This document shows, in pieces, positions 16,162 to 22,900 of a stretch of 47,784 nt of DNA. The notes under the pieces were generated by a model. That model was not told the origin of the DNA and searched no databases. It saw nothing but the letters and a program-made list of their open reading frames with translations. The stretch is from Methanomassiliicoccales archaeon (GTDB lineage Archaea; Thermoplasmatota; Thermoplasmata; Methanomassiliicoccales; UBA472). Each line of letters begins with the position of its first letter. The first letter of the stretch is position 1. The position numbers and the translations under genes were made by a program. Where the stretch lies: the NCBI GenBank assembly GCA_038740345.1, contig JAVYMA010000015.1, positions 1-47,784 of the forward strand, written 5' to 3'.

Positions 16162-17013
16162 ATGGAAGATCGCAGAATAGAATGGGTTTCTAGCAAGTGG
16201 TTGATGGATAATTTGGACGAAGAGTTGAAAATCATTGATTGTCAGCCTAATGTGCATGACTATGTACGTAGGCACATTCCCGGCGCAGCTTACCTAGCGG
16301 AAGAGAACCTGAGAATTATGCAAGACAGCATTCCTCATCGATGGCTAGAGGGGCAGATGGCGGCCAAGATATTCTCTCAATTAGGTTTGAGCAATGACAT
16401 ACCGGTGGTTGTATACACCAGCATAAAACCCGCGGTCCCTACAGGAGATGGTGTTCCCCAAAGCATGATAGCTTATTCCCTTGTCCGTTATGGGCATAAG
16501 AAAGTCTTGATATTGGATGGAGGATTGGATGAGTGGCTTAAGAACGGTGGTCAAACTACTCAAACACTACCTAAAATAAAAAAGGGTGATTTCAGACCGA
16601 TGATTGACACCAGTCTTCCTATGACTTATGTAGAGTTCATTTCAAGAAAAGATGGTGAAGATGTAATTCACATAGATTCTAGATCTGGAGAGCAGTATGA
16701 GGGTGAATCTGTCTGGTCTAAGAAGGGGCATATACCGGGGTCTATAAACATTCCATGGTCGAGTTCCTTTCAACCACACAACCTTGCGCTGCTTCGGCCT
16801 AAAGAAGAAATCATCGAGATCTTTTCCCAATCAAGAGTAGTTCCAGAAAAAGAGATCATATGTCATTGCGGTACTGGCCGCAAAGCGGCGGCACAACTCG
16901 TCGTGCTGAGATGGCTTTTAGGCTATCCCCGAGTAAGGCTTTTTGAGGGTTCATTTACTGAGTGGTGCAGATATGAAGAGAATGAAACGGTGATTGGGTT
17001 TAGGCCGCGATGA
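16162..17013 (+). CDS. Tandem-rhodanese sulfurtransferase
   Basis: A 283-residue protein with two rhodanese domains, the layout of thiosulfate/3-mercaptopyruvate sulfurtransferases. The N-terminal domain (about 5-135) has HIPGAAYLAEENL and DGGLDEWLKNGG but lacks the active Cys (VYTSIKP at the loop position), as is normal for the inactive first domain. The C-terminal domain (about 150-280) has HIDSRSGEQYEG, HIPGSINIPW and the active-site loop CHCGTGRKAA, whose second Cys fits the persulfide-carrying residue, then LFEGSFTEW. It would transfer sulfane sulfur to cyanide, thiols or a biosynthetic acceptor. GGGGATGA lies ahead of the ATG. Divergent neighbour is the ferredoxin-domain protein. Confidence 0.9.
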   Translation: MEDRRIEWVSSKWLMDNLDEELKIIDCQPNVHDYVRRHIPGAAYLAEENLRIMQDSIPHRWLEGQMAAKIFSQLGLSNDIPVVVYTSIKPAVPTGDGVPQSMIAYSLVRYGHKKVLILDGGLDEWLKNGGQTTQTLPKIKKGDFRPMIDTSLPMTYVEFISRKDGEDVIHIDSRSGEQYEGESVWSKKGHIPGSINIPWSSSFQPHNLALLRPKEEIIEIFSQSRVVPEKEIICHCGTGRKAAAQLVVLRWLLGYPRVRLFEGSFTEWCRYEENETVIGFRPR

Positions 17014-17425: not shown

Positions 17426-17827
17426 TCACCTATATGACTTCTGGCGCTTCTTTCGCGCACCGCGGCCTAGTGGTTTCTTGGGCAGCTTTCTTCTCGCATC
17501 TGATACTACAAGAGTCCTATCCTGCTGCTTGAACATCTTCTCCAGATCTTCATCTTTGAAGAACTCCACCAGACCTCGAGCGATGGCGGTCCTTACGGCC
17601 TCAGCCTGTCCCATAACGCCTCCGCCATGCACCGAGACATCGATATCAACCTTTAATGCCCTTTCAGGCGCCAGCATAAGCGGCTCCATGATCTTTAGCC
17701 TGGCCAGCTCTGGGGTCCATATCTCTACAGGCTTGGAATTTATCCTCACCTTGCCAGTCCCTTCCTTGACGGACGCTCTGGCCACGGCCGTCTTCCTCTT
17801 ACCACTCGTATTGGCTACTTCGGCCAT
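17426..17827 (-). CDS. rps9: Small-subunit ribosomal protein uS9
   Basis: 133 residues, typical for archaeal S9. The N-terminus [20 protein letters not shown] and the basic C-terminal tail ending KKRQKSYR, which reaches into the P site of the small subunit and touches the tRNA anticodon loop, are diagnostic. [20 protein letters not shown] in the middle is also conserved. AGGTGA precedes the ATG at 17827. Third gene of the ribosomal operon, 4 nt after rpl13. Confidence 0.98.
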
Positions 17828-17831
17828 CTTT

Positions 17832-18251
17832 TCACCTCACCTTGGAGCCAAGATATGCAGAGACCTCGCTCAGAGTGACATAGCGCTCTCGGCTCAGCTC
17901 AGCAGCCTCCATTAGTTTCACTTTCTCTGCGGATTCCAGCTCTTTAGGAATGCCCACGTATACTTTAAGTAGACGATACGCGGCGCGTCCCTTTGCCCTG
18001 TCCCACGGAAGCATGCCCCGCACCGTTCTCTTTAGGATAAGATCAGCTCGGCGTGGATAGAAGGGGCCATGGATGACCTTACCACGGTCCTTCTTTTGCT
18101 TGTATCGGGCAAAGATGTCATTCTTATTGCCCGTGACGATGGCCTTCTCGGCGTTGACCACTACTACCTCTTCGCCGTTGAGGATTTTTTTGGCGACATT
18201 GGTGCAAAGTCTTCCTAGGATTTGCCCTTCAGCATCAATGACTGTAGCCAT
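17832..18251 (-). CDS. rpl13: Large-subunit ribosomal protein uL13
   Basis: 139 residues from the ATG at 18251, chosen over the in-frame GTG at 18260 because GGTGAG is positioned 5 nt ahead of the ATG. The start [20 protein letters not shown] and the central [21 protein letters not shown] are L13 signatures. It is an early-assembling protein of the 50S subunit. Gene spacing of a few nucleotides on both sides shows it is inside the operon. Confidence 0.98.
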
Positions 18252-18256
18252 GCATC

Positions 18257-18619
18257 TCACCCCATTATCCTGACGTCCCGGCCGCTAGGAGCCTCCCTCA
18301 TAAGCTCAGGTATGGTGAGCTTCCTGCCGCCGGCTTCCTCTATCTTCTTGGCTGCCGAATCCGAGAACTTATAAGCAGCTACCGTCAGCTTCTTGCTGAT
18401 GGTCCCTGCTCCCAACACCTTCCCCGGCACCACGATTATGTCGCCTTCATTTGCATATCGCTCTAACTTGCTCAGATTAACCTCGGCCCAATTCTTCCTA
18501 GGTCTCTCCAATCTTAGAGCAATGTCTCGCCAGACTGCGGCACCCTTCTCCCTTGAGGTCGCCTTCAATGACTCCACGAGGGCGACTAGGTTCGGGTCCG
18601 TTTTCTTCCTGAACGTCAT
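18257..18619 (-). CDS. rpl18e: Large-subunit ribosomal protein eL18
   Basis: 120 residues, an archaeal/eukaryotic ribosomal protein with no bacterial counterpart. Recognised by the WRDIALRLERPRKNWAEVN stretch, IVVPGKVLGAGTISKKLTVA and the C-terminal GRDVRIMG. First gene of the operon; a TATA box lies about 50 nt upstream of the ATG at 18619. The order L18e-L13-S9-RpoN is the standard archaeal arrangement, though the frequently following rpoK/enolase/S2 genes are absent, replaced by tRNA-Pro and then a converging rhodanese. Confidence 0.98.
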   Translation of the reverse strand: MTFRKKTDPNLVALVESLKATSREKGAAVWRDIALRLERPRKNWAEVNLSKLERYANEGDIIVVPGKVLGAGTISKKLTVAAYKFSDSAAKKIEEAGGRKLTIPELMREAPSGRDVRIMG

Positions 18620-18666
18620 AGTTCTGACTCTCCCGACATTGGGTAAAGCGGTCTAATAGGAACCTC

Positions 18667-18675
18667 TTTTATAAA
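18667..18675 (-). promoter_or_regulatory. TATA box of the ribosomal operon
   Basis: TTTATAAAA on the minus strand, preceded by an A/G-rich BRE-like AAAGC, is centred about 52 nt upstream of the rpl18e ATG. It predicts a transcript start near 18645, leaving a leader of about 25 nt that contains the GGGAGAG ribosome site. Confidence 0.6.
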
Positions 18676-18800
18676 GCTTTGCTACGCATCCACTACCACA
18701 AGGCATCATGGCCAGGATACGGTCTGGGGTAGGGATAGCAACTATCACATTAATGCCCATGCGAACTAGAACTCCATATCTGGCTAGTTTCTGTGAGGCA

Positions 18801-18809
18801 TTATATATA
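18801..18809 (+). promoter_or_regulatory. TATA box of the TIM-barrel/SIS operon
   Basis: TTATATATA lies about 45 nt upstream of the ATG at 18850, predicting a transcript start near 18830 and a short leader with the ribosome site AGGTGA at 18840-18845. This spacing rules out the upstream in-frame GTG at 18793, which lies before the TATA box. Confidence 0.6.
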
Positions 18810-18849
18810 CAAGTACCTGATTACTAGGGATTACCGCTCAGGTGACTTG

Positions 18850-20073
18850 ATGATTCGCTTCGGGCCAGCTGGCATTCCTCTTTCTTGCAAGGGTCGGACG
18901 TTGAAGGATGGGATCGAGGACGTTCACAACCTCGGACTCAATGCTATGGAGGTACAAATGGTCCGCGTCAATGTGATGGAAAGAGTTCCAGACGAGGAGG
19001 AAGTGGGCCTTACACCTCTCCAAATCGAAGGCGATCTCGTAGTGGAGATCCTTCGTCGGAAAGGAAAGAAGGATATGGTCATAACTGATCTAAATGAGGA
19101 GATCAGGGAGGATGATACTCTAGTCACATTGGCTTCGGGTTTGGTGCAGAACTTCCAAGAGCTTCGTGAACTCGGCATCATGGGGCAAGAGTTGGACGTC
19201 GAGCTCTCCATGCATACTCCATATTACATGGACCTTGTTTCCAACAGCGATTTGACCAAGAAGAGCATGGACTCCATAAGATGGGCAGGAATGATGACGG
19301 ACCAGATGAATGGCGTGCTGGTGGCGACTCACATAGGTTTGTATGGAAAACTATCCCAAAAAGCTGCGAACCAAAATGTAAGGGACAACTTGGAGAAGAT
19401 CATCAATTGGTGGGATGAGAACAAGATCAAACCTAGGTTAGGAGTGGAGATATCTGGTCGCCAGGAGGTCTGGGGTTCCTTGGAAGAAGTTTTAGAGCTA
19501 TGTGACGATATAAAAGGTCTGGTCCCGGTTATGAATTTCGCTCATTACCATGCGCGTGAGAATGGAATTTTAAGAGAGCCTAGCGACTTCGCTGAATTCT
19601 TCGATAGATGCAAGAGCTACGTAGGGTCTCAATATTACACGCATTTCTCAGGAGTTGAGCATGAGGCAGGGAATGAGAAAAGGATTACGCCCATCAAGAA
19701 AGGGGATCTTAGGTTCGAGCCATTGGCTGAATATCTGGTGGAGGCTAATCCTAATGTAACAATCATCTCCTCCTCACCTCTTCTTGAGCACGATGCCATG
19801 TATATGAAGGTAATCTATGAACGTGTGCTTACCAAGAAGGTGGCGAAGGAAGTAAAGGCAAAGCGCTCGGAGCAGCAAGAAGAGGAGAAAGGCGCCGAGC
19901 AAGAGGAACAGAAGCTCAAGAAGACGGAAAAGACTGAGAAAGGGAAGGCCGAGAAGAAACAACAATCCAAGGAGCCTGGCAGAGATAAAGAGAAAAAACC
20001 CACAAGTGCCAACTTAAAACCCTCCAAAAAGATTGCCAAGCAGGTCGAGATTGATTACGAAGAGGATGAGTGA
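18850..20073 (+). CDS. Xylose-isomerase/endonuclease IV-like TIM-barrel protein with charged tail
   Basis: 407 residues from the ATG at 18850, decided by AGGTGA 5 nt upstream. Residues about 1-330 resemble the AP endonuclease 2/endonuclease IV TIM barrel: MIRFGPAGIPLSCKGR at the start, ELSMHTPYYMDLVS, THIGLYGK, GVEISGR, VPVMNFAHYHAR and YTHFSGVEH supply His/Glu/Asp residues at the usual barrel-end metal positions. Nfo itself cleaves abasic DNA, but this subgroup in archaea is uncharacterised. Residues about 333-407 are an extreme Lys/Glu/Gln-rich, disordered-looking tail that could bind nucleic acid or a partner. The stop overlaps the start of the SIS gene by one base (TGATG), so the two are coupled. 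Confidence 0.75.
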   Translation: MIRFGPAGIPLSCKGRTLKDGIEDVHNLGLNAMEVQMVRVNVMERVPDEEEVGLTPLQIEGDLVVEILRRKGKKDMVITDLNEEIREDDTLVTLASGLVQNFQELRELGIMGQELDVELSMHTPYYMDLVSNSDLTKKSMDSIRWAGMMTDQMNGVLVATHIGLYGKLSQKAANQNVRDNLEKIINWWDENKIKPRLGVEISGRQEVWGSLEEVLELCDDIKGLVPVMNFAHYHARENGILREPSDFAEFFDRCKSYVGSQYYTHFSGVEHEAGNEKRITPIKKGDLRFEPLAEYLVEANPNVTIISSSPLLEHDAMYMKVIYERVLTKKVAKEVKAKRSEQQEEEKGAEQEEQKLKKTEKTEKGKAEKKQQSKEPGRDKEKKPTSANLKPSKKIAKQVEIDYEEDE

Positions 20074-20612
20074 TGAAGGAAGCCTCCAATTTTATAATCT
20101 CTGAGGTAAAGGAATCTTTAGAAAAGGTAGACCCAGCATTATCTGAGAAAGTGTGCGATGCTATATTAGGAGCGAGGGTAGTATTCATTTACGGAGTGGG
20201 AAGGTCAGGACTTGTCGGCAAAGCTTTTGGCGTGCGTCTTGTCCAAATGGGTCTGGATGTCCATTTCATAGGTGATACCACGACTCCCATAGTGCAGAAA
20301 GAGGATCTGTTATTGGTCATCTCGAATACAGGGGAGACGATGTCCGCCGTCCAGACAGCCAATATTGTAGGTAGGATTGGTGCAGAGGTCGTGGTAATAA
20401 CCTCCAATCAGCAATCAAAATTAGGGAGGACGGCGAGAATCATTGTCGAAATTCAGCCCTGCCGCAAGGAGGAGAGGTCCAAATTAGCTCCACTTGGCAC
20501 TATTTTCGAAGTGGCCAGCCTTATCTATTTGGATTCCTTAGTACCTTTGTTGATGCAGAAGCTGAATCAATCAGAGGCATCTTTGCGCAAGCGTCATGCC
20601 ATATGGGTCTAA
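20073..20612 (+). CDS. hxlB: SIS-domain protein, 6-phospho-3-hexuloisomerase-like
   Basis: 179 residues from the ATG at 20073, whose A is the last base of the preceding stop. A single sugar isomerase (SIS) domain: VFIYGVGRSGLVGKAFGVRL, then HFIGDTTTPIV, LLLVISNTGETMSAVQTA and VVVITSNQQSKLGR; the C-terminal PLGTIFEVASLIYLDSLV matches 6-phospho-3-hexuloisomerase (PHI) of the archaeal ribulose monophosphate pathway, which interconverts hexulose 6-phosphate and fructose 6-phosphate. The partner hexulose-6-phosphate synthase (HxlA) is not here. Its stop overlaps the stop of the converging JAMM protease gene. Confidence 0.85.
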   Translation: MKEASNFIISEVKESLEKVDPALSEKVCDAILGARVVFIYGVGRSGLVGKAFGVRLVQMGLDVHFIGDTTTPIVQKEDLLLVISNTGETMSAVQTANIVGRIGAEVVVITSNQQSKLGRTARIIVEIQPCRKEERSKLAPLGTIFEVASLIYLDSLVPLLMQKLNQSEASLRKRHAIWV

Positions 20613-21271
20613 TTGCCATCCTTTTTACCCTTGTCAACATCGGCTAATTTTTTCCTCCTCACAGTCTCGCCGAAATATGGATTTTGATATTCGTCCCAAT
20701 ATACAGCGAAGGGGCGTGAGCGAACTTTTCCATTTTCGATGAAAAAGGACTCGATCTCCTTATTTATAGGATCGATTACAATGGCGGAATGGAATCTCTT
20801 GTTGAACAATCCTTTCTGGGTCTCGACATCAGTGGGGGAAAGAAAACATCTATGACCTGGATGAGAGTGATACCAACCAACGATCACATACTTGAAGCCT
20901 GCCTCCTCGAGGTAGGCGAAAAGTCTTTCCATCCCATCCCGCGAGAATCTAACTCTAACTGAGGAGGAATCCAAATCGGTTGTGGCCACATCTCTTACAA
21001 TAGAATATTGTACATCATTCCATGTGAATACGTTACCTAGCAGGAGTCCCATCACTTCAAGCCTCTGCGAGGCCGCGGCTGAAGCATGATTGCGTATCTT
21101 CTCCTCCGCCAGTTTCGAGAGATACAATTCATATCTACCCGGACCTACCTTTGCATACTCCTCCCGCGCCTTCTCATTCAACCATTTATGAGCGGTGCAC
21201 CTCTCTGGCGGGGGCGGCTCTCGCTGCCTAAGGCAAGGCTCGATCGCTCTAAGGATTTGTGGTGGCGTCAT
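20609..21271 (-). CDS. Rpn11-like JAMM (MPN+) metalloprotease of a ubiquitin-like system
   Basis: 220 residues from the ATG at 21271, which overlaps the E2 stop (ATGA). The full JAMM zinc-protease motif is present: E72 in RLEVMGLLLG, H135 and H137 in VGWYHSHPGHRCFLSPTD, S145 and D148. The wording EVMGLxLG ... GWYHSHPG-x-x-C-x-LS-x-x-D-x-x-TQ is very close to the proteasomal deubiquitinase Rpn11/CSN5, not to bacterial RadC or ThiF-associated JAB proteins. About 50 residues with several prolines precede the MPN domain, and a Lys/Asp-rich tail follows it. Expected role: cleaving the isopeptide bond between the Gly-Gly modifier and target lysine. The modifier already ends in GG, so precursor maturation is not needed. 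Last gene of the operon. Confidence 0.92.
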   Translation of the reverse strand: MTPPQILRAIEPCLRQREPPPPERCTAHKWLNEKAREEYAKVGPGRYELYLSKLAEEKIRNHASAAASQRLEVMGLLLGNVFTWNDVQYSIVRDVATTDLDSSSVRVRFSRDGMERLFAYLEEAGFKYVIVGWYHSHPGHRCFLSPTDVETQKGLFNKRFHSAIVIDPINKEIESFFIENGKVRSRPFAVYWDEYQNPYFGETVRRKKLADVDKGKKDGN

Positions 21272-21777
21272 ACCTCCCTCACGACTTTTGGCAAAGGTAC
21301 TGAGATCAATGGCCCCCCAGTTTTTCGGGTTCGGTTGAAATATTCGGCTGCAAGGGTGCACGTTTCAGTTCCGAATGGGCTTGATGGATTGGGGTTGAGC
21401 AGAAGATACTCGATGCCCTTGATGAACATAAGCAAAGTAGAATTAAAACTCCACTCGTCAAGTAGTTTATTGCAAAGGAAGCCCCCATCTTCTGGCATCA
21501 TTATATTGGGATGAAAGATGGGAGTAAGCCAAGTGACCTGAGGCTTCTGGAAGGGGTAATCGGCTGTTATTGTCAGCGAAAAGCGATGATGATACCTTTT
21601 CCTGATTTGGCCATTAATAAGCTCATAACCTGGTATTTGCACTAAGAGCATCTCAATCTCCAAAGGGAATGTGGAGAAGGCGTTTTCTTCTATCTCAATG
21701 GGGTGTTTGAGACATCTCTGGCAAATAGCCAGCTCATTCTTCAGCCTGGATACGAGTACTTCGCGGGGTAAAGGCAT
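21268..21777 (-). CDS. E2-like ubiquitin-conjugating enzyme
   Basis: 169 residues with a recognisable UBC fold: N-terminal helix (EVLVSRLKNELAICQR), beta strands ending in FSLTITADYPFQKPQVTW, the HPN motif at residues 89-91 (FHPNI), catalytic Cys102 in GGFLCNKLLDEWS, the conserved Trp109, and the later PNP (129-131) followed by a C-terminal helix (AAEYFNRTRK). Eukaryotic E2s read HPN-I-x3-G-x-I-C-L-x-I-L-x3-W; here the HPN-to-Cys distance is 3 residues longer. All hallmarks needed to carry a modifier as a thioester are there. The gene starts 3 nt after the ubiquitin-like gene stop and ends in ATGA overlap with the JAMM gene, so the three are translationally coupled. Confidence 0.92.
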   Translation of the reverse strand: MPLPREVLVSRLKNELAICQRCLKHPIEIEENAFSTFPLEIEMLLVQIPGYELINGQIRKRYHHRFSLTITADYPFQKPQVTWLTPIFHPNIMMPEDGGFLCNKLLDEWSFNSTLLMFIKGIEYLLLNPNPSSPFGTETCTLAAEYFNRTRKTGGPLISVPLPKVVREV

Positions 21778-21780
21778 CCA

Positions 21781-22020
21781 TCAACCGCCTTCTGGGTCAG
21801 GGATGAGCTCCAAATCGTCTGAATTGCATATTCCAGCCTCAAGCACCGTTTGCTGTCCTCTAAGAAGCTTCTTACCCCTGCGTAATACGTAAGCGCCAGC
21901 GTCCTTTTCCCAATATCCTGCAGCTCCTTCTATTATCTCCTGGATAGTATTTTCCTCCTCCAGCTCCATATCAACGGTGCTGCCCGTCTCAGCATTTCTT
22001 ACTCTGACTCGTACGGACAT
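21781..22020 (-). CDS. Ubiquitin-like modifier ending in Gly-Gly
   Basis: 79 residues with predicted beta-grasp pattern: strand 1 (SVRVRVRNAET), turn, strand 2 (STVDMELEEEN), the main helix (TIQEIIEGAAGYWEK), strand AYVLRRGKKLL, then TVLEAGICNSDDLELIP and the C-terminal tail DPEGG with the stop codon directly after GG (78-79). The LRRGKKLL ... TVLEAGI order parallels ubiquitin's strand 3 and following loop. Because no residues follow the diglycine, it can be activated by E1 without proteolysis. Internal lysines for chain formation are few: K39, K50 and K51. Located between E1 (94 nt away) and E2 (3 nt). No clear ribosome site is seen ahead of the ATG. Confidence 0.92.
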   Translation of the reverse strand: MSVRVRVRNAETGSTVDMELEEENTIQEIIEGAAGYWEKDAGAYVLRRGKKLLRGQQTVLEAGICNSDDLELIPDPEGG

Positions 22021-22114: not shown

Positions 22115-22900
22115 TTAATTATGGAGTTGGCATTGAGGATCAAGCTCCACCTCCACTTCTATGCAGGCATTCGTCAGGCCGTTGTATAAGAACATATGAC
22201 GAAGGCAGGAGTCCGCTTTTCCGCTGATTATCTTGAGAGCCTCTCGGACCTGAATGGCAGCTATGATGCTGGTGGTAGTTATTTCAGCTGCCAACTTTGG
22301 CTCGAAATAGTTCGTATCCGCACCAGTGCAGCTGTAGCGTCTTTCGAGCACACGATAATGGCTGCGATTCATAGAGCACTGAAGGCAAGGATCTGATGGT
22401 GGCAGAGCAACCTGGACCTTGCCTGAGGTCCCTAGAGTCCCCCCATCGACCAGAGGTCTAGAATAGTGATAGCAAAAAGCATTGACATGCAGGCGTGCTG
22501 CGATGTTATCCAGGCACCCTAAGACCAAATCGATTTCCTGGAACAGCCTCTCAGGAATTTCCTCTATTCTTGAGACTATCCCTTTCACTCTTGCTTCAGA
22601 ATCTAATTGCCCAGCCTTTTCGGCTAGGACCAATGCTTTTGGCTTCCCCAATAGGGCATCTTTTTCATCGAAGAAAAGACATCTGTTGAGATTGGAGCGC
22701 ACCACCTTATCCATGTCCACCACGGTTATATGGCGCACACCCGCAAGCAACAGATTTTTCAACACCTCATTCCCTAAGGCGCCAGCTCCGACTACTAGAA
22801 TCCTACTTCCCATTACCTTATCCAAATCGATCCAGCCAACTCGCCGAGTACGGTCGTGCCTATCCTCATTTAATATATTTGGTGTGATTACGTAACTCAT
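22115..22900 (-). CDS. E1-like ubiquitin-activating enzyme
   Basis: 261 residues, a minimal adenylating E1 of the ThiF/UBA fold. Visible: DRHDRTRR near the N-terminus (the D-R-Q-x-R position of E1s), ATP loop GAGALGNEVLKNLLLAGV (38-55), VVDMDKVVRSNLNR (60-73) with the Asp and Arg that hold ATP, K86, LGCLDNIAARLHVN (127-140) with the Mg-binding Asp131, and a C-T motif, SCTGADTNYFEP, putting Cys191 as candidate thioester residue. A CLQC pair (172-175) recalls the zinc site, but the second CxxC pair is not obvious. The wording is closest to eukaryotic Uba2/Uba3, yet there is no separate Cys-domain insert and no ubiquitin-fold domain. First gene of the operon; probably leaderless. Confidence 0.93.
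   Translation of the reverse strand: MSYVITPNILNEDRHDRTRRVGWIDLDKVMGSRILVVGAGALGNEVLKNLLLAGVRHITVVDMDKVVRSNLNRCLFFDEKDALLGKPKALVLAEKAGQLDSEARVKGIVSRIEEIPERLFQEIDLVLGCLDNIAARLHVNAFCYHYSRPLVDGGTLGTSGKVQVALPPSDPCLQCSMNRSHYRVLERRYSCTGADTNYFEPKLAAEITTTSIIAAIQVREALKIISGKADSCLRHMFLYNGLTNACIEVEVELDPQCQLHN

Follow-up and report, generated by a model that had tools for sequence, protein, structure and literature searches.

A small open reading frame on the minus strand of the window (the whole 47,784-nucleotide stretch of Methanomassiliicoccales DNA analyzed here) encodes a ubiquitin-like protein (Ubl) whose last two residues are glycines. The locus raises the question of whether this protein is a modifier that can be conjugated as soon as it has been translated, and, if so, what part is left for the JAMM metalloprotease encoded close by. 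The Ubl gene is the second in a minus-strand operon with the gene order E1-Ubl-E2-JAMM:

22115..22900, minus strand: E1/ThiF-fold activating enzyme, 261 aa (Pfam ThiF, 1.6e-54)
21781..22020, minus strand: Ubl, 79 aa, ending in Gly78-Gly79; ATG start, stop codon TGA at 21783-21781
21778..21783, minus strand: Ubl-E2 junction, with the GG codons, TGA, and the E2 ATG 6 nt past GG
21268..21777, minus strand: E2 (UBC fold), 169 aa (Pfam UQ_con, 3.6e-13)
20609..21271, minus strand: JAMM/Rpn11-like metalloprotease, 220 aa (Pfam JAB, 1.8e-14)

The modifier gene and its operon

Translation of the minus strand, a strand that the earlier note left unstated, over 21781-22020 gives MSVRVRVRNAETGSTVDMELEEENTIQEIIEGAAGYWEKDAGAYVLRRGKKLLRGQQTVLEAGICNSDDLELIPDPEGG followed by TGA, i.e., 79 residues from an ATG start; the plus-strand frame of the same stretch is not open and has stops inside. 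The protein terminates in LELIPDPEGG, with GGC GGT TGA as the final codons. The earlier note had described the modifier as mature in its encoded form, with Gly-Gly as the last residues, and this description stands: the frame closes with PDPEGG-TGA, as it does in both other genomes of the window's genus (G001 and G002). In an alignment of 24 diverse relatives P74, D75 and P76 are invariant and E77-G-G is nearly so. The window genome is a 1.79-Mb draft in 47 contigs, and an assembly frameshift or a false stop might in principle conceal a longer C-terminus and make the GG end an artefact. We regard this as refuted for practical purposes. The same end in G001 and G002 and the conservation of PDPEGG in the 24 relatives argue against a sequencing accident, genera g5 and g6 have the identical end as well, and a frameshift that added residues would also disrupt the conserved junction with the E2 gene.

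The predicted structure places the protein among ubiquitin-like folds. An AlphaFold2 model (pLDDT 90) is a beta-grasp with the order E-E-H-E-E-H-E, and Foldseek matches it to SUMO, ISG15, ubiquitin and the Caldiarchaeum ubiquitin 6fno (TM 0.80-0.87). The Pfam matches stay below the curated cut-offs, both for ubiquitin (PF00240, 13.9 bits vs 25.4, E-value 0.048) and for YukD (PF08817, 19.3 bits vs 27, E-value 0.002). As modeled, the Ubl is a member of the beta-grasp superfamily by fold, outside the curated Pfam ubiquitin family. The closest Ubls, 91-94% similar, lie on contigs of Methanomassiliicoccales MAGs.

The best PDB match of the E1 is yeast Uba1 (4.7e-34), with MoeB weaker at 8.5e-21. 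Its adenylation motif GAGALGNE (G38-A-G-A-L-G-N-E45), C191, the C172/C175 pair and C257/H260 are invariant or nearly so among relatives. Judged by sequence, the invariant Cys191 occupies the position of the E1 catalytic cysteine, and Cys172/Cys175 together with Cys257/His260 are likely zinc ligands; the terminal CxxH (C257, H260) is invariant, and this motif and C172/C175 may together bind zinc in a site that differs from the four-Cys one of MoeB/ThiF. The E2 has UBC enzymes as its best PDB matches (1.8e-11), the canonical HPN (H89-P90-N91) and the catalytic Cys102 (codon 21474-21472), all invariant in 81 readable rows. The JAMM matches Rpn11 best (3.3e-15); its motif HSHPGHRCFLSPTD keeps H135, H137, S145 and D148 (HxHx7SxxD), and with E72 the metal site is intact. 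The longest JAMM open reading frame, 20609-21361, begins at a GTG within the E2 gene; the likely start is the ATG at 21271, in an ATGA overlap with the E2 stop codon, as in relatives.

The Ubl stop codon is separated from the E2 gene by a 3-nt gap, and the E2 and JAMM genes overlap by 4 nt. This order and spacing are conserved across about 80 loci, and the catalytic residues of E1, E2 and JAMM are near invariant among relatives, so that, with active sites intact, the three enzyme genes of the window look functional. Neither between E1 and JAMM nor immediately adjoining them does the window operon contain a RING gene. The neighborhood at 17426-20612 (a SIS-domain gene, an AP-endonuclease-like TIM barrel, rpl18e, rpl13 and rps9) is conserved, and it persists in genomes without the conjugation enzymes.

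An E2 was found in 82 of the 120 relatives searched, at loci with the same gene order. A Ubl match is present in 130 of 147 Methanomassiliicoccales genomes, the system with a GG-ending Ubl is counted in 98, and the system also occurs in other Thermoplasmata. We hold with good confidence that the open reading frame encodes the modifier of a complete ubiquitin-like conjugation system of Methanomassiliicoccales and other Thermoplasmata. This confidence covers the whole reading, in which the activities of the enzymes, the direction of transfer, the E3 role and the JAMM roles are inferred, alongside what can be seen directly: the genes present, their active sites, the fold as predicted, the variable tail, the junction geometry, RING co-occurrence and the disappearance of GG along with E1/E2.

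Tail length, the JAMM metal site and loss of the GG end

A reading of the mature end as a distinctive trait of the archaeal system finds no support, since the end varies among close relatives. In the 80 readable Ubls of the order, a tail past GG is absent from 28 and present in 52, with a length of 1 aa in 26, 2 aa in 12, 5 aa in 3, 6 aa in 8 and 9 aa in 3. Within the window's own family, genera g1, g5 and g6 have no tail and g2, g3, g4 and g7 have one or two residues; elsewhere in the order tails reach 9-10 residues, and both states occur in other Thermoplasmata orders as well. On a tree of E1 and E2 (99 rows) tail presence switched at least six times. Because both states are common and the switches are repeated, 'mature as encoded' holds for the window, but as one state of a trait that is labile in evolution: the propeptide has been gained and lost repeatedly.

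The geometry of the junction accounts for how long a tail is. Irrespective of tail length, the distance from the GG codons to the E2 start codon is 2-7 nt at nearly every locus. Longer tails overlap the E2 gene and are read in another frame, and tail sequences are unrelated from clade to clade. Tail length is thus set by the position of the Ubl stop codon around a near-fixed E2 start. Selection on the GG codons to serve as a Shine-Dalgarno site for E2 was considered as well; we did not adopt this view, GGC-GGN being far commoner than GGA-GGN.

We then compare the tail with the state of the protease. The JAMM is without metal ligands in eight loci, one in genome G088 (L065, genus g15) and seven in g13 (L079, L081, L082, L083, L128, L129 and L130). 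Both metal histidines are absent from the JAMM in G088 and in the g13 clade, where HSH is replaced by RSV, RAE, KSS or RSS, and the region of the catalytic Glu is altered. The Ubl is tail-less in 7/7 readable loci with such a dead JAMM, which represent only two independent losses; for L082 the Ubl, likewise tail-less, is encoded on a different contig of that genome. Loci with an active JAMM carry a tail in 56 of 85 cases, and on the tree L065 adjoins L072 and L117, which combine a one-residue tail with an active JAMM. An independent-pairs test of tail vs JAMM activity has two events only, too few for significance. Judged from these gene sequences, the pattern, with its two events, would fit if a tail can be carried only alongside an active JAMM, and such a rule matches the biochemistry of Caldiarchaeum (PMC5654768, PMC6043591). 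Loci L022, L074, L075 and L084 were excluded from the comparison, as contig ends or a frameshift mimic JAMM defects there; L164 is a short contig with a partial JAMM match. A first tblastn search had suggested that the JAMM gene itself was lost in L065, L079, L081 and L083, but a profile search found degenerate JAMM genes at these loci, and the claim was therefore reworded from a lost JAMM to lost metal ligands.

In g13 the entire system is diverging fast. A TGA lies inside the E2 match of the JAMM-dead genome G072 (L083) and, in one search only, of G036 (L081), and reflects either decay or an overrun of the match past the stop codon. Further JAMM pseudo-enzymes without metal ligands are found at L133, L134, L137, L140 and L153, and in some genomes ligand-less JAMM genes adjoin a GG-less Ubl, without E2.

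Ubls without GG occur in about 28 genomes of g21 and in G058, G100, G108 and G035. E2 is absent from all of these; E1 is absent in g21 and G035, where only ThiF/MoeB-type paralogues of about 30% identity to E1 are retained, and diverged in G100 and G108. Nearly all GG-less Ubls examined are syntenic, with the SIS and AP-endonuclease-like neighbors and often rpl18e-rpl13-rps9, the exception being G058. Lineages without E1, E2 and RING still have a GG-less Ubl at the same locus. GG accompanies E1/E2 and is missing where they have been lost, i.e., it is kept where E1/E2 can use it. For the three least-diverged pairs of g21 GG-less Ubls dN/dS is 0.17, 0.20 and 0.04, which suggests that purifying selection conserves these proteins, and the GG-less Ubls may hold a new non-covalent role. 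The GG-less ubiquitin-fold proteins comprise L135-L153 (g21), L131 (G035) and L132 (G058; synteny not shown).

A RING protein that accompanies the system

A ligase was sought in the rest of the genome. The window's own genome has a single Pfam zf-RING_2 match, in a 257-aa protein encoded just before ftsZ:

G000:C8:31721-32488 (L234:1285-2055): RING-finger protein, candidate E3, just upstream of ftsZ

The protein consists of an N-terminal hydrophobic helix, a C4HC3-type RING-like finger and zinc ribbons, and from this sequence it is probably membrane-anchored. The Pfam match is below the curated cut-off of 27.3 bits, with 26.4 bits for the best members tested and 17.3 for the window genome's copy. 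A family profile of the 44-aa RING core matches RNF165/Arkadia RING E3s at 1e-6, and Foldseek with the AlphaFold model puts RING E3s on top, weakly (E 0.015). The gene is single-copy and unlinked to the operon in the window genome; in several f2 genomes it is on the contig of the Ubl operon, 8-29 kb away.

Co-occurrence was scored with the profile of the 44-aa core. The full-length protein had been tried as a query and was misleading, its zinc ribbons matching many proteins. Across the 147 genomes, the RING core and the GG-Ubl system are both present in 91 and both absent in 47; 7 genomes have the system only, all of them at most 87% complete, and 2 have the RING only. In near-complete genomes the RING accompanies the system in 49/49 and is found in 1/25 without it (49/0/1/24 for both, system only, RING only and neither). 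The same contrast is seen within genera: in g18, genomes G035, G038 and G053 are without system and RING, whereas G047, G049 and G051 have both, and corresponding contrasts exist in g26 (G069 vs G112) and g13. Across the class the RING family has a wider distribution and is also present in genomes without the E2 of this system; this level provides no clean test because RING paralogues reach up to about 1600 aa. Within the order the phyletic pattern of these sequences is strong evidence for assigning the RING protein to the pathway. It is the best E3 candidate and probably acts as such, an activity that we infer.

Proposed mechanism, alternatives and known systems

In the mechanism that we propose, E1 would adenylate Gly79 of the Ubl and form a thioester with it at C191, from where the Ubl would be handed to Cys102 of E2. 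The unlinked RING protein would act as the E3 that directs the Ubl to its targets, and the Rpn11-like JAMM would strip it off again. In the window's genus translation would yield active Ubl directly, without trimming. Immediate activation, as the earlier note proposed, has a precedent in Caldiarchaeum, whose E1 accepts ubiquitin truncated after GG with no need of Rpn11, whereas the full-length form is refractory (PMC5654768). Because no trimming is needed when the Ubl ends at GG, the JAMM would act only in deconjugation; for the window's JAMM, with its metal site intact, this is a plausible assignment. A propeptide would be tolerated only in the presence of an active JAMM able to cleave it off.

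Combining these elements, the order may preserve the steps by which a eukaryote-like ubiquitin system is taken apart: propeptide and active JAMM; mature Ubl and active JAMM, as in the window; mature Ubl and dead JAMM; and finally a GG-less Ubl with E1, E2 and RING lost. Taken jointly with the RING protein beside ftsZ as the E3, and with the propeptide as a by-product of the fixed junction that is tolerated while the JAMM is active, this is a reading on which we are evenly divided.

Two alternatives have to be weighed against the proposed mechanism. The tail may have no functional meaning, drifting with the stop codon and either being removed by a carboxypeptidase or leaving activation unhindered, so that the role of the JAMM is unaffected by it. 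That tails are unrelated between clades, that longer ones are the E2 start read in another frame, that the E2 spacing is fixed at any tail length and that the state changes so often on the tree would all be expected under drift. The Caldiarchaeum pro-ubiquitin, with its nine extra residues, however resists its E1 as long as Rpn11 has not cut it (PMC5654768), and a tailed Ubl is combined with a metal-ligand-less JAMM in 0/7 loci; we therefore consider drift without function unlikely, while giving it appreciable weight.

The other alternative concerns the Ubl itself, which might be mainly a sulfur carrier of the ThiS/MoaD/SAMP/Urm1 kind, with GG as a thiocarboxylate handle and conjugation minor or absent. 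Prokaryotic Ubls of sulfur pathways usually terminate in GG too, the E1 is short, of ThiF/MoeB size and with a CxxC pair, and a rhodanese-domain gene (Pfam) is found at 16162-17013, but this gene is outside the operon and the E1 is closer to Uba1 than to MoeB or ThiF. Sulfur transfer has no place for an E2 and a JAMM, yet nearly every locus has, directly downstream, an E2 that is canonical in its HPN and catalytic Cys; with this near universally co-conserved E2 in its operon, the window system departs from SAMP/Urm1 carriers, which work without one. GG is also gone where E1/E2/RING have been lost. A mainly sulfur-carrying Ubl is in our judgment quite improbable.

We return to the conjugation system and its known relatives. 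Systems of E1, E2, RING and Rpn11 are known in archaea from Aigarchaeota and Asgard archaea. The operon of Caldiarchaeum subterraneum has the same components, i.e., a GG modifier of ubiquitin fold, E1, canonical E2 and an Rpn11-like JAMM, with a RING protein in the genome; in both cases E1, E2 and Ubl share one operon and the JAMM metal site is intact. As the earlier note had stated, its modifier carries extra residues that must be trimmed: CsUb is made as an 87-aa precursor, and the nine residues that follow GG are cleaved off by CsRpn11 (PMC6043591, PMC5654768). The window system differs in having no propeptide, in its order E1-Ubl-E2-JAMM on one strand and in an E1 of only 261 aa, and the small RING protein of the Caldiarchaeum operon has as its counterpart a larger one with hydrophobic helix and zinc ribbons, encoded elsewhere.

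From the order itself, Fort 2015 placed the Rpn11-like WP_019177758 of Methanomassiliicoccus luminyensis with eukaryotic PSMD7/PSMD14 (PMC4453063); this is an Rpn11-related JAMM of the same order, and the passages of that account that concern it cover the JAMM alone, without the modifier and its end, the E1/E2 genes or a RING partner. Fuchs 2018 noted JAMMs in operons with E1 and E2 (PMC6043591), and James 2017 points to further archaeal clusters in a supplementary figure. Across the literature searched, we came across no account of this operon and its modifier in the order, nor of the variability of the modifier's end, the dead JAMMs or the accompanying RING protein; supplements and subscription papers fall outside this scope and may list such loci. 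We rate the system as a variant of the known archaeal E1/E2/RING/Rpn11 type.

More distant systems share some of these features. SAMP/HvJAMM1 of Haloferax also has an archaeal Ubl ending in GG, a ThiF-fold E1 and a JAMM deconjugase, but no E2, its modifiers are MoaD/ThiS-like, and the JAMM belongs to other groups. Bacterial E1-E2-JAB-Ubl operons (Iyer 2006 types 6a-6e, PMC1779556; BilABCD) likewise hold a four-part Ubl set in one operon, and their JAB has been predicted both to process and to remove the Ubl (PMC1779556); the E2-like proteins of types 6c and 6d are without the classical histidine, in contrast to the HPN of the window E2 (PMC1779556), and BilA has two Ub-like domains, unlike the window system. 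Eukaryotic ubiquitin agrees in fold, GG end and E1/E2/RING/JAMM logic, but is made as fusions or precursors and shares about 20% identity with the window Ubl in a structural alignment.

Outside Asgard archaea and Aigarchaeota, the order thus provides an E1/E2/E3/JAMM set that is compact and apparently complete, in lineages with cultured members among others, together with an E3 candidate open to testing and, as controls, lines in which the system has been lost naturally. Since close relatives differ in the end residues, it constitutes a natural experiment on the gain and loss of tag trimming: tailed and tail-less forms coexist with the same enzymes, so that comparison and simple swaps can tell processing by the JAMM apart from deconjugation by it.

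For the detection of conjugates the composition of the Ubl matters. Its translation confirms that K39, K50 and K51 are the only internal lysines; the accompanying suggestion that so few limit the chain types amounts to a guess, a lysine being kept at K39 in 69/80 relatives, at K50 in 50/80 and at K51 in 42/80, and the N-terminal Met could likewise be an acceptor of the modifier. The earlier note was also right that no basic residue is close to GG: R54 is the last one, and the tryptic remnant would be 25 residues long. Residue 77 is E in 78/80 loci, and because this conserved E77 gives a cut before GG, Glu-C would leave a plain GG remnant.
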